Positions 18,501 to 42,774 of a DNA stretch of 47,019 bases are shown piece after piece (the stretch's first letter is position 1; every line of letters begins with the position of its first letter). The notes under the pieces are model-generated. The model was not told where the DNA came from, ran no database searches, and was given only the letters and a program-made list of their open reading frames with translations. The stretch spans positions 1 through 47,019 of the forward strand of contig JAPKYR010000182.1 of assembly GCA_026394215.1 (NCBI GenBank), in the 5' to 3' direction. Source of the DNA: a bacterium (GTDB lineage Bacteria; JAJVIF01; JAPKYR01). A program made the translations under genes and the position numbers.

Positions 18501-19703
18501 TTAGATCGCAAAATCCAGGCGTGCTGTCCATAATGTCTCGTTGATGTCCGAGCCTGATAGATCTGATTCATTGCGACGCGACCATTCTAAATGCAACGCC
18601 ATGTTGTCCTCGATATAGTAGCGCCCGCCGACTGTCCATCGAGTGATATCACCAAGGATTGATGAAGCGTTGACCCAGTCGTATCTGGTAAAACCTGCAA
18701 ATTTGATGGTGGGAGTGTAGGTTACTTCCGCGAAACCGCCCGAGTATGGGACATTGCCACTGAAGTTCCAGAGCTCGGAACTATCATTCGAGCGCAAATA
18801 CTGAAGCGCCAGATTCCACTGTTCAACGTTAAAGCTGGCGTCCACACCCCATCGATCGAAGCTTTGTTCCGACATATCGGTTTCTTGCCACGAGGCTAAC
18901 GGTTTAGCTTGCCCGAAATAACCGGTCACACCTATCCGTTGTCCTGCAGTCTGGCCTTCACCGGGACCGAATACATAAGCTGCTCTGACATAATAATCGC
19001 TGGGTGCCGTGTCTGATCCGTTTGTCTCCGATCCATCTAGAATGCCGAAGGCGTACCGGAATCCATCCCTGCCCCAACCCGTAAACTCTACTCCTACCTG
19101 GTTGTCAGAGAACGCCGGACCACCCGGGAATGTGAAATCGTAGATTTCGTATGGTGAAATACTAAGGTGCCGTTTATTACTGAAAGCCACATAAGCAGGC
19201 TCGAACTTCCCGGCTCGGATATTAAACCATGTGGATCCTAAGTTGCTGAAGATTACGTTAGCGCTCTCGATCGCACCATTCTGGCCGGCGACTCCTCGAG
19301 AGGAATTAATTTCAGGTGGGTAGACAAACATGAATCCTATGTCAGGGCCGATTAATCCACCGGCAAGGATATCAACACCATTAACCTGGAATTCATTGAC
19401 ATCAACGTTTGAGGTTTGAGTGCTGTCAAAGTTGTCGTTGTTGTAACCTGCGCTCGTACGAATCGCAACAGGTACGGAGGTCTCAGTGATGTCTTTCTCC
19501 AATGTTTCCATTCCCGGTAACTGGTAACCATTCATCCGGAAACGCTGGCCGAAATCGTTAAGCCTCGGATAAGTCGAATGGCACATTGTACACTCGAAAC
19601 CATACTTTCTCGCAAAAACAGGTATGGCCGAGGCTTTGGACGGCAGAAGTGTCACTAATACAAGAGGCGCTAACATAAGCAGGAATAAGGTTTTTATACT
19701 CAT
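18501..19703 (-). CDS. Outer-membrane porin with an N-terminal monohaem c-type motif (Cyc2-like cytochrome-porin)
   Basis: Signal peptide, then AIPVFARKYGFECTMCHSTYPRLNDFGQRFRMNGYQ (CxxCH), then a beta-barrel-like ~340-aa region ending ARLDFAI. Confidence 0.72.
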   Translation of the reverse strand: MSIKTLFLLMLAPLVLVTLLPSKASAIPVFARKYGFECTMCHSTYPRLNDFGQRFRMNGYQLPGMETLEKDITETSVPVAIRTSAGYNNDNFDSTQTSNVDVNEFQVNGVDILAGGLIGPDIGFMFVYPPEINSSRGVAGQNGAIESANVIFSNLGSTWFNIRAGKFEPAYVAFSNKRHLSISPYEIYDFTFPGGPAFSDNQVGVEFTGWGRDGFRYAFGILDGSETNGSDTAPSDYYVRAAYVFGPGEGQTAGQRIGVTGYFGQAKPLASWQETDMSEQSFDRWGVDASFNVEQWNLALQYLRSNDSSELWNFSGNVPYSGGFAEVTYTPTIKFAGFTRYDWVNASSILGDITRWTVGGRYYIEDNMALHLEWSRRNESDLSGSDINETLWTARLDFAI

Positions 19704-20749
19704 CTCAGACCTCCACCAGGGTCAGCCGGTAAGCCGGGACCTTCAGGGAATGTGGGAATGGGAACTTCGGGTATCGTACCGGTAAGCGATTCCATAAACG
19801 CTACCAGATCTTCTTTTTCCTGCTGGGTGAGTGCAAGCGGGAACATAAGCAGATCGAGATTGTCGTTCTGAATACCACCCCGGTTGTAGAAATCGACTAC
19901 ATCCATCAGGGTCTGCTCGGACCCGGTATGCAGATAAGGGTAGGTCAAAGCGATGTTCCGCAGGGTTGGGGTCTTGAAACGACCAAAATCAGCAGGATCG
20001 TTTGTCTCATTAAACCGGCCTGAATTTGGATTCTCCCCATCAAAACCAACGCCCAGGTTGTGGAACGACTGGTCCGAAAACATTGGCCCGCTATGGCAGG
20101 TCGAGCAATGAGCTTTCCCATTGAATAGATCTCTGCCCCGTTCTGCGGCGCTTGTCCATTGTGAGTCGTCACCCATCAGGTGAAGATCGTATGGTGATGG
20201 CCCGGAGATAATTGTTCTCTCGAATGATGCGATTGCTTTCGCAATTCCATCTGTAGTGACATCTGTTCCGAATACTTCCTGGAACTGCTCTACGTAACCC
20301 GGTATGGCATTCAATTTAACGACGACGTTTTCAAGGGTTTCACCCATCTCTATCGGATTATGAATGGGTCCAAGAGCCTGGGCTTCCAGGGATGGAGCCC
20401 GTCCATCCCAGAATTGATAGCGCATGTATGCGGAATTAATAATTGTTCCGGAGTTGCGTCCTCCAACCTGGCCGGCGATCCCGGTATCGGTTTTGCCGTG
20501 ATTAGCCCAGCCGGTGCGGGGATCATGGCAGGTCGCGCAACTGATAGTGCTGTCTGCTGAAAGCCTTGTGTCAAAATAAAGTTGTGCCCCAAGCCGGATT
20601 TTCGCATCTGTCTGGGGATTATCCGCCGGTATGGGTACCGGTGGCATAAGTGTGTTAGCCATGAACTGACCTTGAGCGAGCAACTTTGGCTGCTGAAGCA
20701 TCAGAGCCAGACCAACTAACACGATCATTAGAAGTACCAGTCTTCTCAT
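19700..20749 (-). CDS. Di-haem cytochrome c peroxidase/MauG-family protein
   Basis: LGAQLYFDTRLSADSTISCATCHDPRTGWA and GKAHCSTCHSGPMFSDQSFHNLGV; FKTPTLRNIALTYPYLHTGS. Confidence 0.92.
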   Translation of the reverse strand: MRRLVLLMIVLVGLALMLQQPKLLAQGQFMANTLMPPVPIPADNPQTDAKIRLGAQLYFDTRLSADSTISCATCHDPRTGWANHGKTDTGIAGQVGGRNSGTIINSAYMRYQFWDGRAPSLEAQALGPIHNPIEMGETLENVVVKLNAIPGYVEQFQEVFGTDVTTDGIAKAIASFERTIISGPSPYDLHLMGDDSQWTSAAERGRDLFNGKAHCSTCHSGPMFSDQSFHNLGVGFDGENPNSGRFNETNDPADFGRFKTPTLRNIALTYPYLHTGSEQTLMDVVDFYNRGGIQNDNLDLLMFPLALTQQEKEDLVAFMESLTGTIPEVPIPTFPEGPGLPADPGGGLR

Positions 20750-20945: not shown

Positions 20946-21888
20946 CTACTGACTCAGATACGCTGCCAGCAAATCGATTCCGGCCTGGACGTCCTTCATG
21001 CTGACAGTTTCGTTCACTGAATGCCCATAGCGCGTGGGAATAGACAGTGTAATCGATCTTGCGCCTATCCCTGTCCGCTGCATCGCGCCCGCATCGGTGC
21101 CGCCCCGCGGAAGAATCTCAAGCTGGTGCGGAATTTTTTTGCACCTGCGCGTGAGGCTCAGACCCCGGGATATCCATCGCGAGCGTTATATCGAGCGCGA
21201 TTCCCACGTCCGGCTGGATTTCATACGATGATGTGGTTGCGCCTCGAAGCCCGACCTCCTCCTGTGTCGTGCCGACGGCGTAGATATCATGGGTATTGCC
21301 TTTGGTTTTTCTCAGCGCCTCGATCATCACGTAGACTCCGACACGGTCGTCCATCGCCTTGCAGTTTACAAGGTCGCCCATCTCTGTAAGCTCGCGCAGC
21401 CACACGACAGGATCGCCGACCTCCACTTTTTTGGCGGCCTCTTTTCCCGAAAGCCCGAGATCGATGTAGAAATCGGTCAATGCCAGTCCTTTCTTCGTCT
21501 CCTCGGGAGTCTGCATGTGGATCGGCTTCCCGGCAATACTCAAAAGGCCGGGGAGTTTATGTTTCCCTTTCCCGAGCACCATCACCTGCTGACACACAAG
21601 GGTTTTCGGGTCGAACCCCCCGACAGTGACAAATCTTAAAAATCCGGTTTTCTCATCGACATGGCTTACTATAAAGCCAATCTCATCGATATGACCCGCG
21701 ATCATGATTTTCTTTCGGTCTTTATCTTTCCCCTTCCCTTTTTTCAGTCCTACGACACTTCCGAGGGTGTTAACCCAGACTTTGTCGCATAAGGGCTCAA
21801 GCTCCTCCTGGACAATCTTTCTTGTTTCATCCTCGAACCCGGATGGTCCGAACGATTCTGTTAATTTCTTTAAAAGTTGTAATGTCAT
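20946..21888 (-). pseudogene. M42-family aminopeptidase disrupted by an internal deletion and frameshift
   Basis: ORF 21118-21888 has AGHIDEIGF, CKAMDDRVG, TTQEEVGLRG and LAMDIPGSEPHAQVQK, then stops. Another frame continues IPHQLEILPRGGTDAGAMQRTGIGARSITLSIPTRYGHSVNETVSMKDVQAGIDLLAAYLSQ* to 20946. The junction is at T7 (21134-21140). Confidence 0.8.
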
Positions 21889-22060: not shown

Positions 22061-25000
22061 CTATGATGGTTTGACCCAGAAACCGACCCAGTCTACAAAG
22101 AGGTTCGCGCTGCCGCACCCGTCGAAGCCGTTGTGTCTAAGGCCGACTTTCCAGGGACCGCCCCAAATGGGGGATCCAATAGCGATAGTATTTTGCTTCA
22201 GTGCAGGCTTGTTCGCGCCGCAACCCTGTCCGGTAATAATTGTAGCCGTACTGACGAGAGTGCAGCTTGAATTCAGGAAGCTGAAGGTAACATTATCCAG
22301 TCCGCTTGTAGCGGACAAACCGGGATTAACATAAGCCTGGAGGGTTCCCACGAATCCAGCACTGGGCGCAGCGGGGAATAAAACAGTGCTGCCCCACATG
22401 CTTGACGATGAGGAGGCGCCATAATTTGTCATCCTGAGATAACCATTCGCACCGTCATAGCTCCATGTGTAGCTTCCAATACCGGTTACGCATGCATCCT
22501 CAGCCCACATATCGCCGGGAGCCGAAAAATCGGTAAACCAGACACGATCCCACATGGTGATTGGCGGGTGGGGAATTGCGGTCGCGAAATTCGTTCCGTC
22601 GTATGCGCTGAGGTAAACAAATAACAGCCCGGGAGCTTGTGCTTCATAATCGCTTAAATTAACCGTGAATGAAGTACCTGCGATAGGCGCGCTCCAAGCC
22701 GGGTCGCCATGTGGTGGAGCCGATACCGATGTTGTCACTGCGTACCGGTTCTCAGGCGTTTCGCCGTCGCAATCTGATACTGTGAAGTTATAGTGAAGCG
22801 CCTGAACGAAGGTGAGGCCGGAATAACCAGAGGATGCACCGCCATCAGAAACGAACGGCCCGAATCCTTCGGTGGCCGCAAATGAACTTATCGAAGGCGT
22901 GGTATTGGTATAGTTGATTGAAATATCAAAACTTGTCTGGGTTGCAGAACCATCGGACACACGTTGGAAGAGATGCCATGTTCCATAACCATAAGCGGAC
23001 CAGAGAACATCAAAAGAATTTCCGGTAAATAAAGTCCAATCGTCGACTGGGGGCGTGGAAGTACTGCTCACACCCCATTCGCGGGTAAGAGTCGTCCCGT
23101 CGCAATCCGATGCAATACCGGCATCATATGTCGACAGAACATTAGCACACGTGATTGCTGTGTTCCCGATCGGTGGAGCTGGTGAATTAGGAGGCGTATT
23201 TGTATAAACAACATGAAGGTATGCCGGATCATATACCGTCGTAACACCATCGGAAACTCTCTGGAATAGATATACATCTCCTGGAGGGATGCTCGGGGAT
23301 GAGTAATCGACTATGAAAGAGGTACCTGTGATATCCTGCCAGCCAGTCACCGGAGGTGTAGGACTGCCGTTCCATCCCCATTGATGGGTAAGGGTCTGAG
23401 TGTGGTCGCAATCAGAAACACCGCCGCATGAATAATTTTCAGCGGTGTTAGTACATGTTACGGAAGTCGCGCCGGTAATTGTCCCTAAGAATTCCGGTGG
23501 TGTATTAACTACAGTAACTACTAACGGAACACTGGTTTGGGTATGATCGCCATCGTTTGCTTTCTGAACCAGGTGGTAATTTACCCCGGGGTTATATGTC
23601 GTCCAGTCGATCTCGACCGGACTCGATGTAAAGAAGACCCAATCGCTAACAGGGGTTCCCGACGCGTCCTGAACCTGCCAGAAGCGGGTCATCGGTGTGT
23701 CAGGACATCCTGTTGGCACAGTCCCCATTTCGTACAGTTCAGCGATAGAGCTGCAATCTACGGATGTGCTTCCTGACGGCATCGAGGGAGATCCAAGGGT
23801 ACTGGGATGAACGTAAACGATAAGCGCGTCCGAGTTAGCGGTATCAGCGTTAAGTGTTGCGCGCTGGAAAAGATAAACGTACCCAAATCCGAAATCTACC
23901 GGATCTGCCAGGAATGATGTACCGAAAAATTCCGTCCAACCGGACATAGGCGGGGTTGGAGTCGAGCCAACTGCCCACTCGCGGGTGATATCGACACCTG
24001 AACATCCTGCCATATAATCGCCGGCCTGATAAGTTTCCGTAGCCCCATCGCAAACCACATCCTCGTTTCCGACAGGTGTGGAAGGCTTACCAAGGGCTGG
24101 AGGACCAACTGTGACAGCAAGAGAAACGCTGTAGGTATAATCGAACCCATCATACGCTCTCTGGAACATATAATATGTTCCCTCAGTGTACTCGGACCAG
24201 TCTATAGTCCATGTATCAAAGCTGAAATCAACCCAACCTGTAGCCGGCGGCCAATCCACGATAGTAATCGCATAACTCCTGGACAGTGTCTGCCATGTAT
24301 CGCAATCATTCAGAGGACCGCCCTGATATGCTTCATTGTCATTCGAACAACTTACGGTAACATCGCCGACAGGTTGGCTGTCAAAAAAAACGGGGGCGGT
24401 ATTAAGATACACAACCGTTAATGGATTACTGACCGTCTGGAGATCCCCATCAGATACTTTCTGGAACAGGTAAAGCGGTTGTTCAGCGACAGAACCTGTA
24501 AAATCGACGCTCATCGTCCCGCCTAAAAATAAAATCCATGTCCCGCCAGTCGGAGTTACAGAATCCGTTGATAAGTAATAATAAGTGGTGAGGATACTGC
24601 CGAAATCGCAGTCGAAAATAACGCCTGAGGTGTAGAAAGCAGGTGTCGTAGTACAGGTAACCTCAGTTGGTCCGGATGGAACATCTGGTTTATTCGGGGC
24701 GGTATTATTTTTCAAGATATGCAGCGAAGTGGTAATAAGCTGACCTGTTCCATCATCCACGGAAATGAACAGGTACCAGTCGCCATTGGCGACAATACCG
24801 TAGTCTACAGCAAATGTGCTACCGGTATATACGCTCCAGTGGCCGCCGACCGGAAAATCCGGAGATGTCGACAGGTACCACATGGTGGAAAATTCCGTGC
24901 TATCGCAGTCGATTATTTCAGTTATGGAATATTGCGCATCAGTCATCGAGCAGTCGACGGATGTGGGCCCTGATGGAATTCCCAGTGTTGGGGGAGCGTT

Positions 25001-27907
25001 CAGCTTTTCCACAGATAACGGAAGGCTCAATTGATCATCCAGGCCGCTGACAGATCGCTGATAAAGGAACAGCATGCCATTAGGATAATCACTCCAGTCG
25101 ACATCGAATAAATCGCCGGAAAATTCAAACCACGTGCTGGGTGGGATCATCATGCCGGTTGAAACTCCCCAGTAACGGATGAATACATCCTCGATGTCGC
25201 ACTCACTCGCCTGACCCCCGTCGTACTCCTGAACAGAATCGGTACACATCACCGATTCAGGTCCTATTGGAGTATCCGGTTTTCTCGGAGGTGTATTAAT
25301 CTTGGTGATTTTGAGCGAGGGTGAATTTACATAATCAACGCCGTTATCGCTGGCTCTCTGGAACAGGTAATGATCGCCGCTGATATAATTTGACCAATTG
25401 ATATTAAACGTTTTACCTGTAAAATCTGCCCATCCTGTCGAAGGGGCTACATTAGTATCAGATAAAGCCCACTGCCTGGTCACAGGATCGTTTTCGCAAT
25501 CGACTATGTCTCCTCCGTTGTATTCCTCGTTAGTCATCGAACAATCCACAAACGTATTACCGAATGGAGTCGATGGAGTATCCGGAGGCGAATTGTGCCG
25601 GGTAACAGCCAATGAGTCGCTTATGATTTCAGACTCATCGGTGCCGATCTTCTGCCACACATAATAAACGCCTAGAGGATAGGTTGACCAGTCAACTGTG
25701 AAGGTAGACATCAATGTGAGCTGCCAGCCGTCTGTCGGCGGAACATCCGTAGTTGATATAACCCATGATCTGGCAGGCATGCTATCGCCGTCGCAATCAG
25801 CTCCTCCGACCAGCATGTACACTTCTGCGATTGAATAGCAATAAACATCAGTAGCGCCGGATGGTGGTTCAAGGGGCTCGCTGGGAGTATCTACCCTCTC
25901 GACAATATAGAATTCACTAAATTGTGGAATGAAAGAGATTCCGATTGCCTTGGCCACGATCCACCATTGACCAACAGATGTTTGATTCCAGCTATAATTA
26001 ATAAATGTATCCTGAGACGGTATCGTCCAATTGGGATCCATCGGGTCGATTGTTTCGGGGGGGTCGCCTGCGCCGCGTAACCACTGGAAAATTGGCTGTA
26101 TAGGCTGCCCGCAGGTGCGTATGGAAACCTCGTACAACGCATCGGTAACAGTGCATAAAACATTATTTTTATATTCATCGTCAGAAGTAATCGGGTCTAC
26201 CAGAAATGAAGACGCCTGTTTCTGAATAGAAAGTTCCAGCTCATCTGTGAACTGGCCGTCCGTGACCTGGAACCATAGCTCGTAAGATCCGGGAGGATTA
26301 GCGGAACCATCAGACCAGTCGATAACGGCAGTATTATCGTCTGAATAAGGACCAAGAAATCCCGGAACTCCCGGGGGTCTAATCAGTTCCCATTTGTACT
26401 GAATAACACTGTATGTATTCGGATCGGTGGCGATACACGTATAAACGATATCGGCATCAAAACAAGTCACCGATTCCGGACCCTGGATCTCTTCAATCAC
26501 TGGCGGCTCATTGGAAGGATCACCCTGAGAAACGTCTACGCTGAACTTAGTGTAAGCGGCAAGACGCGCATCTGCAGGGAAGATGCCAAAGGGGCCGTAG
26601 CCATTCGGATCCTTGTTGTACACAGCCAGGAAAATCTCCTTTGTTCCGGACTTCTGAGGTTCAAGATCGGAAATTACGACACTCAAAGTTGTCGAATATT
26701 CCCCTATTGAAACCTCCGAACCGGCAAGAGCGGTCGAATTAAGCAGATAACCGGTCCCGCCAAACAACCCATCAGGACTTCCAAGCCCGATCGAATCGAC
26801 CTGATCGAAAGCGCCGGTTCCACCAAAAGATTGAAGACCCTGCCAGTCATAGATTTTAAGGGTTAAAACCAGGTTGCCTCCCCCACTACCAGATACCTCA
26901 TCGTAAAACAAATTACTGCCGGTTGAATCGGCATCAATAAAAACCGCTTCCGCCACATTAGCCGTAGGCGGGAACTGCTTAGGCATCGGGAAACCAATCG
27001 GGTCGCCCTGGTCATTGACCGCGAGATCCCAGTGGGTGAGAATAAGATACTGGAACTTTATAACAGGCGACCCGCCATTCATCGGGAATTTAATCTCGTA
27101 CTGACGCGAAGCGGGTGAGTTCTGCTGCCAGACGCCTCGTGTCGTAGTGGAGCCGATGGAATCGAAATAAGGCTGGATATCTTCGTTTGTGCCGATATAG
27201 GTCGAGAAATATTTATATGGGTTTACACTGGCGGTCCAGTTTACGTCTTTCGTCCCGAAAATACCTTCCGAGTAACCGAAAAATGTCGGGGCGGTGAACT
27301 CCACCGGATTCATCCATCGCGTGTATCCATCGAAATTCAGAAGCTGAATATCGTTGACGCCGCCATACTTGACAGCCGGATCCTCATCATATGTATTTCC
27401 GCCATCTCCAATTATTATACCCATGGTATCGAAACATGCCAGCTTCGGATCATTGATAGGATGCTTGATAGTGAATTCTGCGGATACCAGCCCATCAGAC
27501 AGAAGCTGGTTAAAAGCAATAACCTTAATTTGCAAATTCGCGATATCGCCCCCAGGGGGTTGGAGCAGTTTCAGGACATTGAGTGCTATCTCAGCGCCCC
27601 TTATCGGGACAACATCAAACTGCGTGGTCTGGTAATCGAATGTTACATCGTACAAACCAATGACAGTATTGGGTGACGTTGCTCCCTGCGAAGCGTGTGA
27701 ATCATCCTCGCTCGGAGTTAGTCCGGGGTCAGCGGAATTATCCGCACCCGAAGTGATATCGGGGCCGGGATCGGTTCCAGATGGGGGTGTAATCGGGTTT
27801 CCCCCGCTTCCGGAACAGGATAATGCGAAAAGCATAATCAGGCTAAGAAGCCCTGAAAGCCAATATCGAGAATAGGAGGTCATCATATTTTCCTTTCTGC
27901 AGCCCAA
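22061..27907 (-). CDS. Giant repetitive lipoprotein: shared N-terminal module plus tandem Cys-pair repeats
   Basis: Lipobox LFALSC; LLNFDGYTRWMNPVEFTAP and LTLKIYDWQG; then about ten ~100-aa units NTPP..P..P.G...V.C.....Y..G...DCD.....R.W.........GW..F.G..F.VDWS.Y..G..YLFQR..DG. The start may be at codon 8 or 9. Confidence 0.85.
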   Translation of the reverse strand: MGCRKENMMTSYSRYWLSGLLSLIMLFALSCSGSGGNPITPPSGTDPGPDITSGADNSADPGLTPSEDDSHASQGATSPNTVIGLYDVTFDYQTTQFDVVPIRGAEIALNVLKLLQPPGGDIANLQIKVIAFNQLLSDGLVSAEFTIKHPINDPKLACFDTMGIIIGDGGNTYDEDPAVKYGGVNDIQLLNFDGYTRWMNPVEFTAPTFFGYSEGIFGTKDVNWTASVNPYKYFSTYIGTNEDIQPYFDSIGSTTTRGVWQQNSPASRQYEIKFPMNGGSPVIKFQYLILTHWDLAVNDQGDPIGFPMPKQFPPTANVAEAVFIDADSTGSNLFYDEVSGSGGGNLVLTLKIYDWQGLQSFGGTGAFDQVDSIGLGSPDGLFGGTGYLLNSTALAGSEVSIGEYSTTLSVVISDLEPQKSGTKEIFLAVYNKDPNGYGPFGIFPADARLAAYTKFSVDVSQGDPSNEPPVIEEIQGPESVTCFDADIVYTCIATDPNTYSVIQYKWELIRPPGVPGFLGPYSDDNTAVIDWSDGSANPPGSYELWFQVTDGQFTDELELSIQKQASSFLVDPITSDDEYKNNVLCTVTDALYEVSIRTCGQPIQPIFQWLRGAGDPPETIDPMDPNWTIPSQDTFINYSWNQTSVGQWWIVAKAIGISFIPQFSEFYIVERVDTPSEPLEPPSGATDVYCYSIAEVYMLVGGADCDGDSMPARSWVISTTDVPPTDGWQLTLMSTFTVDWSTYPLGVYYVWQKIGTDESEIISDSLAVTRHNSPPDTPSTPFGNTFVDCSMTNEEYNGGDIVDCENDPVTRQWALSDTNVAPSTGWADFTGKTFNINWSNYISGDHYLFQRASDNGVDYVNSPSLKITKINTPPRKPDTPIGPESVMCTDSVQEYDGGQASECDIEDVFIRYWGVSTGMMIPPSTWFEFSGDLFDVDWSDYPNGMLFLYQRSVSGLDDQLSLPLSVEKLNAPPTLGIPSGPTSVDCSMTDAQYSITEIIDCDSTEFSTMWYLSTSPDFPVGGHWSVYTGSTFAVDYGIVANGDWYLFISVDDGTGQLITTSLHILKNNTAPNKPDVPSGPTEVTCTTTPAFYTSGVIFDCDFGSILTTYYYLSTDSVTPTGGTWILFLGGTMSVDFTGSVAEQPLYLFQKVSDGDLQTVSNPLTVVYLNTAPVFFDSQPVGDVTVSCSNDNEAYQGGPLNDCDTWQTLSRSYAITIVDWPPATGWVDFSFDTWTIDWSEYTEGTYYMFQRAYDGFDYTYSVSLAVTVGPPALGKPSTPVGNEDVVCDGATETYQAGDYMAGCSGVDITREWAVGSTPTPPMSGWTEFFGTSFLADPVDFGFGYVYLFQRATLNADTANSDALIVYVHPSTLGSPSMPSGSTSVDCSSIAELYEMGTVPTGCPDTPMTRFWQVQDASGTPVSDWVFFTSSPVEIDWTTYNPGVNYHLVQKANDGDHTQTSVPLVVTVVNTPPEFLGTITGATSVTCTNTAENYSCGGVSDCDHTQTLTHQWGWNGSPTPPVTGWQDITGTSFIVDYSSPSIPPGDVYLFQRVSDGVTTVYDPAYLHVVYTNTPPNSPAPPIGNTAITCANVLSTYDAGIASDCDGTTLTREWGVSSTSTPPVDDWTLFTGNSFDVLWSAYGYGTWHLFQRVSDGSATQTSFDISINYTNTTPSISSFAATEGFGPFVSDGGASSGYSGLTFVQALHYNFTVSDCDGETPENRYAVTTSVSAPPHGDPAWSAPIAGTSFTVNLSDYEAQAPGLLFVYLSAYDGTNFATAIPHPPITMWDRVWFTDFSAPGDMWAEDACVTGIGSYTWSYDGANGYLRMTNYGASSSSSMWGSTVLFPAAPSAGFVGTLQAYVNPGLSATSGLDNVTFSFLNSSCTLVSTATIITGQGCGANKPALKQNTIAIGSPIWGGPWKVGLRHNGFDGCGSANLFVDWVGFWVKPS

Positions 27908-30291: not shown

Positions 30292-32499
30292 TTACCAGTC
30301 CGGAGGCGCCTGGAAAATCACGAATTCGTTGACCATGGCATTCGGGAACAGCACAAGACATCTGTCGGACGGGGTTGAGTAATTATTAAGTGCCATGCAT
30401 GAGAATGGGGAACCGAGATTTGTGTAGTTAAGCGTCTGGCACCACACATCGAGCTTGGCAAGCCTTGAACTTCCATCGGCGGTGTTCGCGAAGACAAGAA
30501 TCCTGCATTGCGCATCCATTTCACCGTCCGCATGGTCGATAACAAGGTCGCCCCCGATCAGTTTCCTGATACCGGCAACGTGGGTGGGCGTGATTTTCTG
30601 ATCGAAAATTCCGCTTCTCGACCATATGTCGTCATGGACAGGGGGCGTCATGGAAAGATCGAACTTCTCGATCGAACCCATATCGTCAGCATGGAAGAGG
30701 TAAAGGGAATTGTAATGCCTGTTGATACCGATACCGAGAGGCTTAGGATCGACGGAACCAAGCCACGGGGTGAGATCGAGTTTCGAGGCAGGATCGAACT
30801 CGTATGTGAACGAACCGGACTGCTCAAGATAAATGAGTCTTTCAAGATGAATACCCATACTACCTTTATCACCGACCATCCAGATATCGCCGTTAACCGG
30901 GTCCGTGGTCAGGCATACAGGTTCATTAAGGCCATCGTCTCCCTGACCGAGATCGTAGGGATCCTGAAGGAGCTCACCGGTTCCGCTGAAGATGAGAAGG
31001 TTGTCGGGATCGGCGTCGCTCACGATCAGAATATGACCGTTGAAATCATTAGTCTGCGCGACAAGCGCGTTACCGGCGTCATAGCCGCTGCGAGTGATGA
31101 TCGTATTCGCCGATGTGCTGCCCCCGTAAGGTGGAATAAGGGCAGCCTGGACATTTTCTGTTCCGCCGGTTTTCCCGCCATCGAAAAGCAACGCGCCTTC
31201 ACCGGCAATCGCAACGGGAAGGAATGAGCTGTCGAGATGAAGGTTGCCGTATGAATTATTCAGATTAAATGTCCCGCCGTAATCCATATGAAGGGCCGAA
31301 TTTCCGTTGCATAACGGCGGGTTCACTTCTACGACATTGAGCGTGATCAGCTGATACGCCGTAAGAGGTACACCGGGGACAAAATAGGGGTCCTCCTCGG
31401 GACATTCTATCGAGAATAAGCCCACAAGGGTTCTTGGCTCAAAAATTTTATCGTTTAAAATGTCAAAATGATAAGTGAAGTCCTTATCAGTGCCTTCGCC
31501 GGTCCACGGATTAAGAGAGCCTTCGTAAAGTTCAGGGATTTCCAGGCGGACCTTATCGAATGGCACATACGCCTCATTCTGCCAGTCTTTCACATTAATT
31601 AGGACATCCGCTTCCCCGCCAGCCCAGAGCCCGATTGAGCATTCAAGATTCCCTTCCTGCCCGGCAACAGAAATTACGTAAGGCTCAAGGGAGTTCGCAC
31701 TCAGCGGGAAATCGCCTGGGATTTTCCTCCCGCCAGCTCCGGGTTCATTAGGTTCCTGCCAACTGCAGTCGAAAGCAAGACCCACAATACTCTGTTCCGG
31801 ATCCAGGCTGATATGGTAATGATTAATCTGCCAAAGACTAGCCTGGAAATACATGCGGTCGGTATTGGTCCAGTATTGGATATAAGGATTAACAACGGTC
31901 TGGACATTCTCACCCATGCCCTTTGTCAGACTGCCGTCAAAATAATTGAATGGAACCGGGTTATCCATAAATTCCCATGGATTCCATCTTCTCGTATAAC
32001 CGTCGGCATTCAGCAGCGCAGACTGGCCTGGGAATACCCCCGGAGTATTTACCATATGGGCTGGCCAGAAGTACACGGGTGGCAACATCATGATGCCTCG
32101 GACATCGAATATTGTGTACTCATCCAATGGCAGAGGATGCGTGTATAGAAGAGCGATTGTTATTGTACCATCAGGATGAATATAGAAATCCTCAACCTTC
32201 ACGCCGTCGGGATTGAAATACTCATTGAAATGGAGCACATTAAGATGGAATGTAGCATCCCGGACCGGCTTAACTTCGCATGAGGTTCGATCCTCATTGA
32301 AATACAGGTTGTAATACCCGAGAAGCATTCGATTCGCTTCGCCGGAATCGGGTACCCTGTCGCTGATACCGAGTTGAGCAGACGGGTCGACCGGATTCGA
32401 TGAACCTGAACAACCGGAGATCAATACAGCAACCGTGATCAGGAACAGCATGAATCCAAAAGCTACAACCCGCCAGGCATGGTATATAAACCGGAACAT
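30292..32499 (-). CDS. Lipoprotein: shared N-terminal module plus propeller-like C-terminus
   Basis: Lipobox VLISGC; MLLGYYNLYF...VKPVRDATFHLNVL; LLNADGYTRRWNPWEF; LINVKDWQN. C-terminus CMALNNYSTPSDRCLVLFPNAMVNEFVIFQAPPDW. Confidence 0.82.
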   Translation of the reverse strand: MFRFIYHAWRVVAFGFMLFLITVAVLISGCSGSSNPVDPSAQLGISDRVPDSGEANRMLLGYYNLYFNEDRTSCEVKPVRDATFHLNVLHFNEYFNPDGVKVEDFYIHPDGTITIALLYTHPLPLDEYTIFDVRGIMMLPPVYFWPAHMVNTPGVFPGQSALLNADGYTRRWNPWEFMDNPVPFNYFDGSLTKGMGENVQTVVNPYIQYWTNTDRMYFQASLWQINHYHISLDPEQSIVGLAFDCSWQEPNEPGAGGRKIPGDFPLSANSLEPYVISVAGQEGNLECSIGLWAGGEADVLINVKDWQNEAYVPFDKVRLEIPELYEGSLNPWTGEGTDKDFTYHFDILNDKIFEPRTLVGLFSIECPEEDPYFVPGVPLTAYQLITLNVVEVNPPLCNGNSALHMDYGGTFNLNNSYGNLHLDSSFLPVAIAGEGALLFDGGKTGGTENVQAALIPPYGGSTSANTIITRSGYDAGNALVAQTNDFNGHILIVSDADPDNLLIFSGTGELLQDPYDLGQGDDGLNEPVCLTTDPVNGDIWMVGDKGSMGIHLERLIYLEQSGSFTYEFDPASKLDLTPWLGSVDPKPLGIGINRHYNSLYLFHADDMGSIEKFDLSMTPPVHDDIWSRSGIFDQKITPTHVAGIRKLIGGDLVIDHADGEMDAQCRILVFANTADGSSRLAKLDVWCQTLNYTNLGSPFSCMALNNYSTPSDRCLVLFPNAMVNEFVIFQAPPDW

Positions 32500-32789
32500 A
32501 ATTAAAAACCTCCCGGATTGGATAATATCCTTTGCCGCTGGGTAGTATTATAAAATATAAATACTCAGGTTACAATTTTATAATACCTTAACGAAAGGGA
32601 AAAATACAGTAAAAAATCGACTGGAATCGGGTTGCTTTGATTATTTTAGGGCTGAGAATATACCGGAAATGCCCTGAGATTACCAGGCAGCGCATTGTTT
32701 CGGAATTTTTATGTCACGGATCCAGGCGTCTTTTCGACCGGACATCATGGGAATTTTGCCGGCTGAAAAAGCGAAAGGTTGCCAGTCTT

Positions 32790-32818
32790 TTGACTTGTTA
32801 TTGATGGTTTTATATAAT
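32790..32818 (+). promoter_or_regulatory. Near-consensus sigma70-type promoter for the PKD/LVIVD lipoprotein
   Basis: TTGACT-17 nt-TATAAT; places the true start at 32858, not 32711. Confidence 0.75.
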
Positions 32819-32857
32819 TTCCTGTCTAAAGGCGTTACATCCCGGGAGGTTGTCAGA

Positions 32858-35605
32858 ATGAGAATTCATCATTTATTAATTATCGCAACGATACTGCTCA
32901 TTTTCGGATGCTCGGGACATGGTTCACCTCCGACTGTACCGGACGAATCGGCGCCGGTCGCGATTGCAAAAGCCGATCCGAATCCCCAGGCGGTAAATTT
33001 TCCTGTCAGTTTTTCGGCATCTGACTCAACCGATCCGGACGGTGGAACCATCCAGCTCTATGAGTGGGACTGGAATAACGACGGCACTTACGACCAGACT
33101 GGCGAGAATGTCGATCATACATGGATTGAGACCGGCACTTACCAAGTCCAGCTTCGGCTATTGGATGACGAGGGTATAACTGATATCCTTGATGATCCAC
33201 TGGAAATTACAATCAATAATAACCTGCCTCCCGAAGCGTGCGGTGAAGCCGATCCATTAACTACCGTTGTCTGTGAGCCCGTACATTTTACCGATTGCGG
33301 TTCCGACGCTGTTAAAGGAGCAATGCTCGTCCGGTATGAATGGGACTGGAATAATGACGGTACATACGATGAACAGGGCGCCGATGTTTACCATACCTGG
33401 GATATACCGGGCACATACCTGGTGATGTATCGCGTGACTGATTTCAATGGTGCGACTGACGAGATCTTATCCCCAATCGAAATTACGGTTATAAACGCAT
33501 TGCCATCCGCAGTTGCGGTTGCAGACAGCAATCCGGATGTAGGCGCCATCGACCATTTTGACGGGACCGGGTCATATGACAATGACTGCGAAGGCGTTGC
33601 GATTACGAAGTGGGAATGGGATTGGGACAACGATGGGACATACGACGAGGAGGGAGCTGAGGTTGATCACGTCTGGGATTTTCCGGGCACCTACTATGTG
33701 CAACTCCGGGTTACCGATGATGAAGGGGAAACCGACCTTCTTGATGCACCGCTGGAAATAATTATTCAGGATTTTACATTCAATCCTGTTGATATCACCC
33801 CACCCTGGCTTGCCTTCACCCCTTATGATATTGCAATAGATGGGAATTATGCTTATATCGCGGGTAGATACGGATTGCATATTTTTGACATTTCTGATCC
33901 TGCCAATCCCATATGGGTGAATTTTGTCGGTGCGTCGGCGGATGATTGGCGTGTTGACGTGTCAGGCGGGTACGCGTACATGATTGGTATTAAAAGTCTT
34001 GAAATAATCAATATAGATCCTCCCGAGTCCGCTTACATCGTGAATTCAATCACCCTGTGGGAAGACGATCCTCATGATATAGCCGTATCAGGCGGTTATG
34101 CATGTGTGATGAGTTATAGTAGTCACACTATTAAGATATTCGACATAGATCCTCCGGAGTCGGCATACGTCGTGAGTCAAGTCAGCACGCAGTCGGATTA
34201 TGGGCTTGCTTTAGCCATGTCAGGCGGGTACGCGTATTTTGTTACTGCCGAACATACATATATTGGTGGATATTATAATTCTTATTATTTTCTTCATATA
34301 ATAGAAATAAGCCCTCTTGGATCCGCACACATCGTGAACCAAATACCCGTATGGTATACACGTTATATTTCCGTTTCTGGCGGTTACGCGTATTTGAGTG
34401 AAAGTAACGGTCTTAGGATAATCGACATTGAGCCTCCTGAATCCGCATACACCGTAAATTCTGTCAATACGGGGCAGCAGAATCCATATGGCGTAGCCGT
34501 GTCAGGCGGGTACGCGTATTTGGTTGCTGCAGATGTGCAAGAGAGTAGTCTCTTAATGATCGACATAGATCCTCCCGAGTCCGCATACATCGCGAATACA
34601 GTCGACACACCGTTTCAGTATCTTGGTCGGATTGCCGTGTCCGGGGGGTATGCGTATGCGACGAGTAGATATTTAGGTCTACTGGTAATCGACATAGAAC
34701 CTCTCAATGATGCATACTGCGCAGGGGCATTTTACTCGCTATTTGACTCACGTGATGTAGCCGTGTCCGGCGGATATGCGTATGTGGCGGATGGTTATGG
34801 TTATTTTAAGATAGTCGACATTGAGTCTCCCTATTCCCCTTACATCGTGAATGCAATAACCACGCAGATTGAGGATGCACAAGCTGTAGAAGTGTCCAAC
34901 GGATACGCGTACATAGCAGATAACGCGCCTCATCATGAAGATCAGAGTCTTCAGATAATCGATATAGACCCTCCAGGTTCTGCATATTTAGTGAATGAAG
35001 TAACGATAACGGATTCTTATGGTGTTGAAGATGTGACCGTATCCGGCGGGTACGCGTATGCGGCGATGGGGGCTAGTCTTCAGATAATCGATATAGACTC
35101 TCCCGATTCCGCATACATCGTAAATTCAGTCGAAATGCCGGCGTATGCTAATAGTGTTACTGTGTCAGGCAGCTACGCGTATGTGACATGTCTTCAGTTC
35201 GGCCTTCAGATTATCGATATAAACCCTCCAGAGTCCGCATATATCGTTAATACAGTCGTCACGGAACATGCAAATGATGTAGCTGTATCCGGAGGGTACG
35301 CGTATGTAGCAGATGATTATTATGGCGGTCTTAAAATAATCGACATAGACCCTCCCGAGTCCGCATATATCGTTAATACAGTCGACACACCGGGGTGGGC
35401 ATTGGGTGTAGTTGTGTCCGGCAGCTATGCGTATGTGGCGGATGGAGATGATAAAGGCCTTCAGATAATCGATATAGACCCTCCTGAATCCGCGTACATC
35501 GTAGATTCAGTCGACACAGCGAATGCAAGGAGAGTGGCAGTATCCGGTGGTTACGCGTATGTCGCGGATGGTTATGACGGTTTGCGGATAATTCAGTTGT
35601 GGTAA
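32858..35605 (+). CDS. Lipoprotein with three PKD domains and 14 LVIVD-like propeller repeats
   Basis: SD gggaggt, MRIHHLLIIATILLIFGCSG lipobox; three YEWDWNNDGTYD PKD units; repeats VSGGYAYVAD..GLQIIDIDPPESAYIVNTV. Confidence 0.88.
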   Translation: MRIHHLLIIATILLIFGCSGHGSPPTVPDESAPVAIAKADPNPQAVNFPVSFSASDSTDPDGGTIQLYEWDWNNDGTYDQTGENVDHTWIETGTYQVQLRLLDDEGITDILDDPLEITINNNLPPEACGEADPLTTVVCEPVHFTDCGSDAVKGAMLVRYEWDWNNDGTYDEQGADVYHTWDIPGTYLVMYRVTDFNGATDEILSPIEITVINALPSAVAVADSNPDVGAIDHFDGTGSYDNDCEGVAITKWEWDWDNDGTYDEEGAEVDHVWDFPGTYYVQLRVTDDEGETDLLDAPLEIIIQDFTFNPVDITPPWLAFTPYDIAIDGNYAYIAGRYGLHIFDISDPANPIWVNFVGASADDWRVDVSGGYAYMIGIKSLEIINIDPPESAYIVNSITLWEDDPHDIAVSGGYACVMSYSSHTIKIFDIDPPESAYVVSQVSTQSDYGLALAMSGGYAYFVTAEHTYIGGYYNSYYFLHIIEISPLGSAHIVNQIPVWYTRYISVSGGYAYLSESNGLRIIDIEPPESAYTVNSVNTGQQNPYGVAVSGGYAYLVAADVQESSLLMIDIDPPESAYIANTVDTPFQYLGRIAVSGGYAYATSRYLGLLVIDIEPLNDAYCAGAFYSLFDSRDVAVSGGYAYVADGYGYFKIVDIESPYSPYIVNAITTQIEDAQAVEVSNGYAYIADNAPHHEDQSLQIIDIDPPGSAYLVNEVTITDSYGVEDVTVSGGYAYAAMGASLQIIDIDSPDSAYIVNSVEMPAYANSVTVSGSYAYVTCLQFGLQIIDINPPESAYIVNTVVTEHANDVAVSGGYAYVADDYYGGLKIIDIDPPESAYIVNTVDTPGWALGVVVSGSYAYVADGDDKGLQIIDIDPPESAYIVDSVDTANARRVAVSGGYAYVADGYDGLRIIQLW

Positions 35606-37238: not shown

Positions 37239-39902
37239 ATGTTTTACCGATTTATCGCGGTCCTGGCTTTAAGCATCACGCTGTTCACTTCCTGCAGTGG
37301 CGGCAGTGTTTCAGTAACCTCACCATCAAGCGACCCGAGCCAGCCCCAAATCTCTCAGGACCGGAACGACTCATCCCGATACCTCCTCGGCTATTACACA
37401 ATTTCAATCGATTCCGAAACCGGCGCGGCTGATATCGTCCCGCTTCGAACCACTCAATTTACGGCTAATGTTCTCAGAATTCTCCAACCGCCGGCGAACC
37501 CGGTGAATCTTGTCAGCGTTCAGGCGCTGGATATTTCCCACATTGCGGAGGGTTATATTGAGGTAAATTTCGGGATCAGACATCCGATTCCAGGTAACCC
37601 TATATCCCGTGCTTTCGACCTTCGCGGGATTCTTATCTCGAACGGGACGAAAGCATCGGTTCATGATCCGACCGCGATTTATGCGGACGTCGATGAAACA
37701 AGGCTTGTAAACGCCGATGGATACACGCGGTGGTGGAACGCGCAGGAATTTACTTCGTTCGAATGCCTGTTCGGCTACACAAAAGGGCAGATGGGCTTTC
37801 CGGTTTATCCAACAGCGACATTAAATGGTTATAAATATTATTCTTCGGCTTTCGATTACGATGAGCCGGTATGGGAACTCGACCCGGCATCGCGCGGGAC
37901 GTTCGAATCCGGCACTGCCGTTCTTAAACGTCCTATGTTTATTCAATTCGCGATGAACTGCGACAAACCGGATTTTACATTCAATTACGCAATAGATTTT
38001 TCGTGGGATCTTCCGGATAAGTCCGGCGCTCCCAATTATCCGGTGGACTCGTTCCCGCTGACAGCGAATATGGCTGAAGCTTATTGTGTCAGCGTCCTTC
38101 AGGGTGAGAGCACCGCATGGTATCAGGACTCGACAAGCAGCGGCGGCGAAATAAATCTGGGAATTCGAGTCTATGACTGGCAGGCTGTGGCCGACCCAAA
38201 AGGCGTCGCTAATGAAATCGACAGTATCTGGCTTGAATCCCCGGCGCTTAATGGACCGATCGATGTCATGCCGACGGCAACTGTCCTTCCGGACGGACCG
38301 ACATCAAGCGTTTTTGAAGTTTCACTCGGCAACCTCACTCTGACCCATTCGGGCGAAGAAGAGATGCTTGTATTTGTCGAGACGTCCGACGGAATCGGAT
38401 ACGAACCTCAAATTCAGGGCGGGGAAAATTTTGATTATCCCGACGCGCCGCTTGGATCATACGTTCTGACCTCGGTTCATATCGGGACCGAAAGTAGCAC
38501 CGTGCCTGCGCCCGTTGTGATCAGTATTGATCCGAATTTCGCGCAATCGGGCGATCAACTTACCGATGTAATTGTCCAGGGTCGGTTTTTCCAGGACGGC
38601 GCGCAGGTTGAATTAAGAAATGCGGATTACGGGAACATTGAATTCGAAAACGAAGTTATGATGGGTGGTGGAACGCAGATAACATGCGATCTCAACCTGG
38701 CCCTGGTTCATAACGGCATATACGACGTGGCGGTGATTAATCCCGACATGCAGGAAGGAGTTCTTGAGGACGGATTCACTGTCGACTGCGCGGATGGCAT
38801 GCATGAATACGGCGGGAAATATTTTCTTACTGGCGGACTATCCTGGAATTTCAATTGTCAGAGAGGCGATCTGGCAATTCTTGAGGCGGGAAGCCATGCG
38901 GGAGAATGTGTAGTCAAAAGAGATATTGACCAGTTCGGCGACTATACCGGGTACTATGTCGCATTCGATCCCGATATTCCCGGCGATACACCTGCAACCG
39001 ATTACTTCTCACTTCCCGGAAGAATTGATGGTAGTACAAACTATGTCGGGATGACCGCACAGATCGACCAGAATCCGATGAATGCCCAGATCGGGGTAGT
39101 CAATGGGAGAATGTTCGACACGGTGCAGATCATCGATGAGGACGGGGTCAATGTCGATTCTGTTGTGATCGAGACAACTTCGGATGCGTATCCCGGAAAA
39201 ATTTCCGTGATACCGGGCATGGATTTTGACAAGGACGGGGACTTATGGATCGTGACCGACCTTCGCGGCGAATGGCCCGGACCGCCTCAGGAAATTCTGC
39301 CGCCTGTATGGCAGCTCAGGCATTATGAGCTTCAGCCGTCAAATCCGTATTATGTCGAAAATCTCGCCGACCGTCTTGAGATCAATGACGATCTGACCGT
39401 GACCGGTACCGGCGGACCTGTGATCTGCAACTGGGTCGCGGATATCGCGATCAGCTACGCGGAAGATTCCCTGTTCGTTTTTGCCAACAGTTCCAGCGGC
39501 GAGATTTTTGTGAAATACGATATAAGCGTATCGCCTCCGCAATGGGTCGCTAATGCCGATTTGTATCCGGAATCGATGGCATTCTGCCCAAATCCATATT
39601 CCGGGACAACAAGGGTGGATATCGAATTCGATCACTCCGATCTATCGGTCGAAAATTGCCGCCTGATGGTCATGTACCAGACATGGGACGGGTCGATCCA
39701 CCTTCACCTTATGAGGATCGATACGGATTTTAATATTCTCAACGATGTTGTGCTCGGACCGAATTTCGGATCGTGGGACAACCCGCACTGCATGGCGATC
39801 AACACCGATCCCGATCTACGAAATATGATCATGATCGATATGGATTCCGCGCCGCCGCACAACGACTTTTTCTACTTCCCGATGCCGTCTGAGGGTTGGT
39901 AG
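37239..39902 (+). CDS. Lipoprotein: shared N-terminal module plus IPT/TIG-like and propeller-like C-terminus
   Basis: LFTSCSG lipobox; YLLGYYTISID...VPLRTTQFTANVLRILQPP; LVNADGYTRWWNAQEFTS; LGIRVYDWQA; PVVISIDPNFAQSGDQLTDVIVQGRFF. Confidence 0.83.
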   Translation: MFYRFIAVLALSITLFTSCSGGSVSVTSPSSDPSQPQISQDRNDSSRYLLGYYTISIDSETGAADIVPLRTTQFTANVLRILQPPANPVNLVSVQALDISHIAEGYIEVNFGIRHPIPGNPISRAFDLRGILISNGTKASVHDPTAIYADVDETRLVNADGYTRWWNAQEFTSFECLFGYTKGQMGFPVYPTATLNGYKYYSSAFDYDEPVWELDPASRGTFESGTAVLKRPMFIQFAMNCDKPDFTFNYAIDFSWDLPDKSGAPNYPVDSFPLTANMAEAYCVSVLQGESTAWYQDSTSSGGEINLGIRVYDWQAVADPKGVANEIDSIWLESPALNGPIDVMPTATVLPDGPTSSVFEVSLGNLTLTHSGEEEMLVFVETSDGIGYEPQIQGGENFDYPDAPLGSYVLTSVHIGTESSTVPAPVVISIDPNFAQSGDQLTDVIVQGRFFQDGAQVELRNADYGNIEFENEVMMGGGTQITCDLNLALVHNGIYDVAVINPDMQEGVLEDGFTVDCADGMHEYGGKYFLTGGLSWNFNCQRGDLAILEAGSHAGECVVKRDIDQFGDYTGYYVAFDPDIPGDTPATDYFSLPGRIDGSTNYVGMTAQIDQNPMNAQIGVVNGRMFDTVQIIDEDGVNVDSVVIETTSDAYPGKISVIPGMDFDKDGDLWIVTDLRGEWPGPPQEILPPVWQLRHYELQPSNPYYVENLADRLEINDDLTVTGTGGPVICNWVADIAISYAEDSLFVFANSSSGEIFVKYDISVSPPQWVANADLYPESMAFCPNPYSGTTRVDIEFDHSDLSVENCRLMVMYQTWDGSIHLHLMRIDTDFNILNDVVLGPNFGSWDNPHCMAINTDPDLRNMIMIDMDSAPPHNDFFYFPMPSEGW

Positions 39903-39942: not shown

Positions 39943-42774
39943 TTACGGCCCATATCGCGCGACAAAGATATCCACATAACCGGCTGCAGTTAGGATTATC
40001 TCATTCGGCTCGCCAGGTCCGAATATTGCAGAATATCTGAAGTCTCCTGTTACAACTGCAGAATCATCCGTAAGCGCCGTGATTCCTTCACCAGCATCAA
40101 CATCTAACCCTCCCGCACGTTTCGCCCAAACGAGTAAGCCATCCGGGTTGTAATGCGCGACGAAGATAGCATGCCAACCATCGCAAATCAGTACTGTCTC
40201 GTTAGGCTCGCCCTCTCCGAATATGCCTGATTCAGCAAAATATCCCGTCACGACAGTCGAATTGTCCGAAAGTGTCGTGATTCCTGAGCCATGATTAAAG
40301 GTTTCCTCACCACCTGCGCATTTCGCCCATGCGAGTGTACCGTCAGTGTTGAAACGCGCGATGAAGATAGCGGAATCGGGTGTTGAAGCGCAAGTCATAA
40401 CAGTCTCGTTTGGCTCCCCAGGTCCGAAGATGGTATTGCCCCGACACCATCCTGTCACGACTGTTGAATTATCCGAAAGTGTCGTGATCCCATAGCCAGA
40501 GCTGGTTCCATAGTCGCTTTTCGCCCAGGCGAGTGTGCCATCCGGGTTGTAACGCGCAATGAAGAAAGCATCATAACCATTGGAAGTCAGGATTGTCTCG
40601 TTAGGCTCGCCCTCTCCAAAAGTGGCCGAGTCTTCAAACACTCCTGTCACGACTGTCGAATCGTCCGAAAGCGATGTGATTCCATAGCCTCTGTCATCGT
40701 GGTAAATTCCTTTGGCGCGTTTCGCCCACGCGAGTGTGCCATCTGGATTGTAACGCGCGATGAAGATATCCGAATCTCCAACGGAAGTCAGGACTGTCTC
40801 GTTCGGCTCACCTGTGCCGAATGTAGCCGTTGCAGAAAAATACCCTGTTACGACCGTCGAATCGTCGGAAAGCGAGGTGATTCCAAAGCCCCCATCAAAA
40901 TAAATCCCTCCTGCCATTTTCGCCCAGATGAGGATGCCATCAGGATTGTAATGCGCGATGAAGATATCGGAATTTCCAGCGGAAGTCAGGACTGTCTCAT
41001 TAGGCTCGCCCGGTCCAAATGTGGCTGATCCTCCAAAGAATCCTGTCACGACTGTCGAATTGTCCGAAAGCGTCGTGATTCCATCGCCAGATCCTCCGGC
41101 GCTCTTCGCCCAAGCGAGTGTACCGTCCGGGTTGTAGCGCGCGATGAATAAACCACCAGAAGTCAGGACTGTCTGGTTCGGCTCACCAGGCCCGAATGTG
41201 GCCGACCCATAAAACACTCCTGTCACGACTGTCGAATTATCTGAAAGTGCCGTGATTGCATTGCCCTTTTCAAAACCGTGTCCTCCGGCGTCTTTCACCC
41301 AGCAAAGACACCCTGGTACTGCAGGGAGAATATAAACCTCCAATGGTTCGTCAAGAGTGTCTGTCGCACCTTCATCATCGGTGACCCGCAATTGCACATA
41401 ATATGTGCCTGCATCGCTCCATGTGTGCTCGATTTCTTCCCCAGTGTCATCAAATATACCATCATTATCCCAGTCCCACTCATAAAGCTGGATTGACCCG
41501 CCATCGGGATCGTACGAATTCGAACCTGAAAAACTAATCGGACAATTTTCATACTGCGAATTCGGTACAGCTTCAGCAATAGCTACCGGATTTACATATA
41601 CTTTCTCAACGACTGTCAGAGTCTGCAATTGATATGCAGTCAGATCGAGCCACGGTTTTCCGACCGGATCATTCTCGTCCGCTACTACTCCGATAAGGCA
41701 TATGTAATCGCCGATAGGAGCAAGTTTAGTATTTGAAACTGTTACTTCATAACTCGCAAAACCGCTCCCATCGCTTATCCATGCAGCGGTCGATACACCG
41801 TCGAAAAGCTCCGGACATTCGACTAACGGGTCGTGATATGTCGATTTTCCCTGCCAGTCATAGACATCGATCAACAATATCGTCTCGCCACCCGCGTCTG
41901 TTAAGCCCTGCCCTATCTGTTCTTCAGAAACAGAAATATTCCAGGGCTCCAGGCAGTTCGCATCGGTACCAAAATCATTGAGCGGATCGTCGACCGGTTC
42001 CGAAATCGGCGGCGCCCATGAGACATCGACGGCATATCCGATGACAAAAGTGTCGGACGGAAGCTTCATCGAGAGTGTCTTCACGTCGAGCGACCCGGCG
42101 TAAAAGGCATTGCGGTTATTAGCCGGATCGTCGGTACGGAAATAAATAAATCCATTGATATCCGAATTGGGCACTGTCTGTGTCGATAATTTGCCCGGAA
42201 AATATTTCTGAAAATCCCCGACAGGTGCGGTTAGTGTCGAGCCGTTATACAATGCGGTGTAGCCGTCGGCGTTGAGAAGCAAGCCTTCGCCAATGGAAGG
42301 ATCGGAAATCGACTTCCCGATCGATGGAAACGCATGGCTTCCGTTGAACATGATAATTGTCCTGATATCGAAAACGGAGTATAAAAGTCCGTCGAACGGG
42401 TGATCGATTCGAATATCCAGATCCAGGTACTGATAACCCGGTCCTGGAAAATTGAAACCCATGATCCTGAAACAGTCGTAGCACGGCGCTCCCTCGAGAA
42501 ATTTCAGGACGTTAAAATGGATTTCCCCTTCACGTACCGGGATTATCTCGATTTTCGGGCTGTCGGGATTTTCCACATCGACATAAATAAAATTGTACGC
42601 AAGCAGGTAATGGCTCCCCTCGCTTGAATCAGGCGCTGCCGCAGCATTCCCCGTTAATTCCGACGGGGAAAATGCCGCATCGGGAGTGACAGGCTGCGAG
42701 CCCTGTCCGGCACAGCCGGAAATAATCAACCACATCATTGCGATGATAAGAAGAATAAAACATGATCGGTGCAT
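39943..42774 (-). CDS. Lipoprotein: shared N-terminal module, one PKD domain, seven SBBP-like repeats
   Basis: WLIISGC lipobox; YLLAYNFIYVDV...IPVREGEIHFNVLKFL; LLNADGYTALYNGSTLTAP; LLIDVYDWQG; PKD LYEWDWDNDGIFDDTGEEIEHTW; seven GITTLSDNSTVVTGxFxxSATFGPGEPNETVLT units. Confidence 0.87.
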   Translation of the reverse strand: MHRSCFILLIIAMMWLIISGCAGQGSQPVTPDAAFSPSELTGNAAAAPDSSEGSHYLLAYNFIYVDVENPDSPKIEIIPVREGEIHFNVLKFLEGAPCYDCFRIMGFNFPGPGYQYLDLDIRIDHPFDGLLYSVFDIRTIIMFNGSHAFPSIGKSISDPSIGEGLLLNADGYTALYNGSTLTAPVGDFQKYFPGKLSTQTVPNSDINGFIYFRTDDPANNRNAFYAGSLDVKTLSMKLPSDTFVIGYAVDVSWAPPISEPVDDPLNDFGTDANCLEPWNISVSEEQIGQGLTDAGGETILLIDVYDWQGKSTYHDPLVECPELFDGVSTAAWISDGSGFASYEVTVSNTKLAPIGDYICLIGVVADENDPVGKPWLDLTAYQLQTLTVVEKVYVNPVAIAEAVPNSQYENCPISFSGSNSYDPDGGSIQLYEWDWDNDGIFDDTGEEIEHTWSDAGTYYVQLRVTDDEGATDTLDEPLEVYILPAVPGCLCWVKDAGGHGFEKGNAITALSDNSTVVTGVFYGSATFGPGEPNQTVLTSGGLFIARYNPDGTLAWAKSAGGSGDGITTLSDNSTVVTGFFGGSATFGPGEPNETVLTSAGNSDIFIAHYNPDGILIWAKMAGGIYFDGGFGITSLSDDSTVVTGYFSATATFGTGEPNETVLTSVGDSDIFIARYNPDGTLAWAKRAKGIYHDDRGYGITSLSDDSTVVTGVFEDSATFGEGEPNETILTSNGYDAFFIARYNPDGTLAWAKSDYGTSSGYGITTLSDNSTVVTGWCRGNTIFGPGEPNETVMTCASTPDSAIFIARFNTDGTLAWAKCAGGEETFNHGSGITTLSDNSTVVTGYFAESGIFGEGEPNETVLICDGWHAIFVAHYNPDGLLVWAKRAGGLDVDAGEGITALTDDSAVVTGDFRYSAIFGPGEPNEIILTAAGYVDIFVARYGP

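Follow-up and report, generated by a model that had tools for sequence, protein, structure and literature searches.

Long surface stalks need stiff joints, and known solutions include calcium bound at the joint and cross-links within the domains. In cadherins, the Ca2+ ligands of a joint are provided by the XEX motif of repeat n, the DXNDN motif of the linker and the DXD motif of repeat n+1 (PMC5115871), and in RTX adhesins the extender repeats are stiffened by Ca2+ bound in the linkers (PMC7493085). A disulfide connects neighboring Ig domains in Siglec-3 (CD33) (PMC7426717), and the giant adhesin of Mobiluncus mulieris is a long Ig-like array with covalent cross-links that include disulfides (PMC10619420). 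The bonds of this adhesin are formed within a domain (ester, isopeptide, and a disulfide that joins strands of the same sheet), whereas its interdomain linker is flexible (PMC10619420). A search of the open-licence literature for inter-domain disulfides in tandem Ig or FnIII arrays returned the Siglec and agrin cases and no bacterial array.

Here, we analyzed a bacterial contig of 47,019 nt (the window), in which the minus-strand open reading frame at 22061–27907 encodes 1948 aa when read from a TTG. Since the alignment with the ortholog P0002 begins at an ATG at codon 9, a protein of ~1940 aa is more likely, and the gene probably starts at this ATG and spans 22061–27883. The encoded protein (P0001) comprises, in this order, a signal peptide, a lipobox, an all-beta domain of ~390 aa (the N-domain, 26531–27700), thirteen units of ~100 aa, and a C-terminal domain of ~163 aa (22064–22552), a possible tip domain whose four cysteines are kept in the ortholog; all coordinates are on the minus strand. 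The signal peptide and the lipobox (MLFALS-C31) were recognized by eye and by pattern, and these marks of a bacterial lipoprotein are found both here, with FALS-C31 as the predicted lipid anchor (27815–27817), and in the ortholog (FIIS-C). A lipobox is present at the same place in most paralogs that share the N-domain. A promoter scan stayed near chance, with 13 found versus 10.4 expected.

A previous sequence-only reading had described about ten tandem ~100-aa repeats with a conserved cysteine pair in this lipoprotein, and our unit profile bears this out: ten units of 98–102 aa cover aa 674–1668 (22904–25888, units 2–11), at most six bases off the boundaries first given, and all ten carry both Cys1 (VxC) and Cys2 (DCD or GC), 15 or 16 residues apart. 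Self-comparison of the protein shows a sharp peak at a lag of 99, later units are 28–34% identical to the first one, and positions G11, C17, Y24, C32, P51, and W55 of the unit are invariant. One unit (aa 1469–1570) has a third cysteine, C1494, which is absent from the ortholog. Three divergent units had been missed, two before the ten (aa 466–568 and 569–673) and one after them (~aa 1693–1785), giving thirteen in total; they score 2.9–20.5 bits with the unit profile versus 103–127 bits for each of the ten core units. Unit 0 (26216–26512) carries Cys1 (C482) and C491 and has DPN in place of DCD and lacks Cys2, unit 1 (25889–26203) has both cysteines (C585 and C599), and unit 12 (22553–22831), the last one, has Cys2 (C1713) but no Cys1.

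The ortholog, encoded in another genome of the genus, has 1939 aa and shares the thirteen units and their order, with 55% identity across the repeat region. It keeps each of the twenty repeat cysteines of the ten core units, and an M28 peptidase gene is conserved as a neighbor, so that the array is unlikely to be an assembly artefact. In a search with the alignment of this pair, the nearest named relative is the Planctomycetota bacterium isolate CSMAG_1386, which taxonomy places in one phylum with the window; four genomes of this phylum were sampled.

AlphaFold2 modeling of two units with a 24-row alignment yielded a nearly all-beta structure (pLDDT 95.6, pTM 0.81), for which Foldseek reported 200 matches with E≤0.001, the best PDB matches, starting at E = 7e-6, being for the most part tandem FnIII or Ig domains. 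By its all-beta content and its structural neighbors, the predicted two-unit model is a confident Ig/FnIII-like beta-sandwich. Comparison of a 37-unit profile with PKD domains encoded in this genome gave a probability of 89.8% (E = 1.8e-6), compared to 0.2% for the N-domain as a control, and aligned the DCD loop of the units with the DPD loop of the PKD domains. Moreover, where the Cys-type units have DCD, their relatives in further lipoproteins of the genus read DPD, DID, or DPE. Based on the fold matches, the PKD profile match, and these relatives, we assign the units to the PKD/Ig-like sandwiches as a divergent branch, with the proline of the B-C loop replaced by a cysteine, in agreement with the Ig-like, PKD-adjacent beta domain proposed earlier. 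The reported absence of the WDFGDG signature holds as well, with strand C of the units reading TRxWxxS. Matches to a named family were not obtained: neither P0001, its C-terminal domain included, nor two single units matched Pfam at E≤10, and P0001 found no NCBIfam family and no PDB entry by sequence. Some repeat relatives weakly match PKD_4, Big_9, or K319L-like PKD, with a best PKD_4 E-value of 0.0032 among 24 two-unit members, below the Pfam gathering score for a PKD domain (PF18911/PF00801). Cadherin repeats are matched by one of these 24 members (PF00028, E = 0.065); the XEX, DXE, DXNDN, and DXD set is absent, with nothing but the linker Asn and the D-C-D loop being reminiscent of it. We dropped an assignment to PKD, Big_9, or cadherin, as no Pfam match was significant. 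The conserved cysteines also do not correspond to the canonical disulfide between strands B and F of Ig domains, as one is found in the A-B and the other in the B-C connection.

In an Ig/FnIII sandwich, the A-B loop is at the pole that faces the next domain, and the B-C loop is at the other pole, toward the previous domain. In our model, Cys1 (residue 17) is placed between strands 14–15 and 22–25, corresponding to the A-B connection, and Cys2 (residue 32) between strands 22–25 and 38–44, corresponding to the B-C loop, so that the two cysteines of one unit would flank strand B and point to opposite ends of the domain. The sequence-only reading had ascribed a probable disulfide of its own to each repeat, a pairing that is probably wrong. 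Among 68 aligned units from seven arrays in two genomes, Cys1 of one unit and Cys2 of the next are concordant in 61 of 61 joints (49 with both, 12 with neither), i.e., the cysteines co-occur across each joint as in an array of inter-domain staples. In contrast, Cys1 and Cys2 of the same unit agree in 55 of 68 cases (43 with both, 12 with neither, 7 with Cys1 only, and 6 with Cys2 only), and on this count one disulfide per unit was rejected as the better reading. Agreement was 50/61 for the opposite offset and 52/54 for an offset of +2; we preferred +1 to +2 mainly on structural grounds, as +2 is not structurally sensible. Shuffling Cys2 within arrays gave p ≈ 5e-5 across all arrays, the lowest value that 20,000 shuffles can return, and p = 8e-4 when three groups were represented by a single array each. 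Kinship perhaps cuts the independent register events to four or five, and the informative array ends stem from few independent lineages.

The ends of the arrays follow the same register. First units lack Cys2, and in six of the seven arrays the last unit carries Cys2 but no Cys1. The five Cys-rich arrays read CCCC...C for Cys1 and -CCC...C for Cys2, each beginning with a Cys1-only unit, and four of them end without Cys1, the exception being array C112, whose last unit has both cysteines. In the Cys-poor arrays C579 and C90, the only Cys1 is in the second-last unit and the only Cys2 in the last, a lone pair that spans the last joint, while the other units have neither. A disulfide inside each unit, bridging the 15 residues from Cys1 to Cys2 in arrays whose ends merely lost one cysteine, would suit the units that carry both, and possible alternative partners are at hand in a second cysteine nine residues past Cys1 (YxC) in three first units and at another column in two first units. 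However, the 13 units that break this rule all fit the inter-unit register, and C579 and C90 divide their single Cys1 and single Cys2 between two units, and in the model strand B separates the two cysteines of a unit; we consider such an intra-unit bond unlikely. Cys1-only first and Cys2-only last units would likewise arise if arrays had grown by duplication of segments that each start at a B-C loop and end at the following A-B loop, the register being a trace of this growth with no bond between the cysteines. This explanation appears highly improbable, since none of the ten inner units has lost either cysteine in either ortholog despite their divergence (55% identity) and since it leaves the lone pair over the last joint in C579 and C90 unexplained.

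Staples do not account for C491 or for several cysteines in array C227. The latter array is part of a 2121-aa paralog with twelve units and a Gly-rich end (L052, G001:C227, 3447–9812), in which one of the extra cysteines recurs near strand G (alignment column 115); its gene adjoins genes that by eye resemble fliI, fliH, and fliG. The 1402-aa paralog with array C112 (L055, G000:C112) switches at its end, near 2067–2400, from a Gly/Ser-rich to an unlike Ala/Val/Met-rich composition, suggesting a frameshift. Among the units inspected, the related ones in C305, C314, C215, C205, C163, C260, C109, C128, and others show no Cys1/Cys2 pattern, and these lipoproteins thus add nothing to the register test. 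In an exploratory, post hoc comparison that ignores relatedness, the linker Asn and the Asp beside Cys2 covary (44/2/8/7, p = 4e-4).

We lean toward a lipid-anchored stalk with a disulfide staple at each joint as the best reading, and hold it to be probable. In this model, the lineage-specific ~390-aa beta domain on its lipid anchor would form the base, followed by thirteen Ig/FnIII-like sandwich units in line and by the four-Cys domain at the tip. Cys1 would lie at the far pole toward the next unit and Cys2 at the near pole toward the previous one, and after export Cys1(n) would bond with Cys2(n+1), stapling all twelve joints: C482-C599, C585-C705, C690-C804, C789-C903, C888-C1001, and C986-C1100 in the first half, and C1085-C1202, C1187-C1302, C1286-C1401, C1385-C1500, C1485-C1602, and C1587-C1713 in the second. 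Such staples would fix the angles between the domains, and the resulting stiff rod, ~40–50 nm long at 3–4 nm per domain, may hold its tip domain at a distance from the cell. The cysteines of the mature protein that are kept in both orthologs are the 24 of these twelve proposed staples, the lipid-anchored one, C158 in the N-domain, C491 in unit 0, and the four of the C-terminal domain; an additional C158-C491 bond that would link the base to the stalk is a guess. The long disulfide-stiffened stalk of the earlier reading is therefore retained in part: a stalk of tandem domains on a lipoprotein stands, and stiffening is likely, but as the cysteines track across joints and the two loops of a unit lie at opposite poles, the disulfides are likely to act at the joints and not inside the domains.

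None of the four genomes of the phylum yielded DsbA (PF01323) or DsbB (PF02600), and VKOR and Thioredoxin_4 were not found in the source genome (G000; 3.4 Mb, 93% complete), whereas controls were detected; thus, the usual oxidation route is not visible, which counts against the staples. This would be in line with a cell that does not oxidize its exported proteins and in which the cysteines serve as thiols or as thiolate metal ligands at the joints. The Asp residues flanking Cys2 could join in metal binding, and a reduced habitat is plausible if CSMAG in the isolate name CSMAG_1386 stands, as we presume, for cold-seep MAG. Yet two cysteines with Asp would be an unusual mix of soft and hard ligands, and the C-terminal parts of the exported lipoprotein paralogs are rich in cysteine (1.5%), the number of which is weakly biased toward even values in 32 mature paralogs (21:11, p = 0.11); that this bias is no more than weak also counts against the staples. 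Moreover, a di-haem cytochrome c peroxidase encoded two genes from the stalk lipoprotein gene (19700–20749) suggests exposure to oxidants, and oxidation is possible without catalysis or by another, uncatalogued enzyme. Taken together, we regard free thiols or metal sites as quite improbable, and disulfides at the joints as the preferred reading.

The N-terminal part of the protein, which the sequence-only reading had passed over, belongs to a family with more than 100 copies per genome. The N-domain (model pLDDT 84.6, pTM 0.85) is common to ~138 paralogs: with a 40-copy profile and at most 150 candidates scored per genome, we counted at least 138 copies in the source genome, at least 134 in its sister species, and at least 93 and at least 38 in the other two genomes of the phylum, and the same profile had no hit in a sample of 381 other genomes from across the domain Bacteria. 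None of the 40 members has a significant Pfam match, and a fold search of PDB and BFVD gave no whole-domain match, with a TM to the query of ≤0.21 among the matches listed. The C-terminal parts of the paralogs differ and include the stalk repeat array, PKD-like domains, propellers of the SBBP/delta-60 type, and others. Besides the copy in the stalk lipoprotein, three more are located in the window, at 31333–32352 in a gene with another C-terminal part (30292–32499, minus strand), at 37353–38483 in a gene with another C-terminal region (37239–39902, plus strand), and at 41611–42633 in a gene with one PKD-like domain and delta-60/SBBP-type propeller repeats (39943–42774, minus strand). That every Ig-like joint is disulfide-stapled, from A-B connection to next B-C loop, in an array carried by this phylum-restricted lipoprotein family is, in our judgment, about evenly balanced.

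Several other genes in the window deserve mention. Directly after the cytochrome c peroxidase gene, 18501–19703 encodes a 400-aa protein with CxxCH near its N-terminus and no Pfam match. An M42 aminopeptidase (20946–21888) is split by a probable frameshift, either a sequencing error or a pseudogene: a 256-aa frame (21118–21888) matches profile positions 1–203 of 292, and a 45-aa frame (20946–21083) in another frame reads like the lost C-terminal end. In the protein encoded at 32711–35605, nine LVIVD repeats come after three PKD domains, and almost identical SGGYAYVAD units recur throughout its length.

Compared to known systems, the units resemble PKD and Ig-like (Big_9, K319L-like PKD) surface domains in their all-beta fold and in the alignment of the DCD with the DPD loop, but they lack WDFGDG, have Cys for the Pro of DPD, and carry a signature of their own, WxxFxGxxFxVDWSxYxxGxYYLFQR. 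Tandem FnIII modules such as the Fn3-like ones of CbhA (PDB 3pdd), the best Foldseek matches, are likewise tandem beta-sandwiches; however, identity is ~8–14% and the TM over the whole two domains only ~0.3–0.45, indicating a different joint angle, and we know of no FnIII array with a staple at every joint. Cadherin and RTX extender repeats are also beta-sandwiches in line whose joints are stiffened by ligands of both neighbors, as proposed here, and the cadherin joint may serve as a precedent, by analogy, for contact between sites comparable to Cys1(n) and Cys2(n+1). Here, cysteines occupy these sites and the proposed staple is covalent, while the cadherin-23 match has only E = 0.04. If true, stapling each joint by a disulfide would add to the known ways of making a stalk stiff, as a covalent counterpart of the calcium joints, and the staggered cysteine register, legible from sequence alone, would provide a design rule for rigid protein rods. 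As the usual disulfide enzymes were not found, the chemistry of the joint is a real question, and the N-domain, present up to ~138 times in 3.4 Mb of genome and unmatched in the databases, represents a major unstudied surface system of a poorly known phylum. In contrast to Siglec-3 (CD33), an animal receptor with a single staple, we propose one for every joint of a bacterial array, and in contrast to the Mobiluncus mulieris adhesin, where the cross-links are inside the domains, the proposed bonds lie between them.
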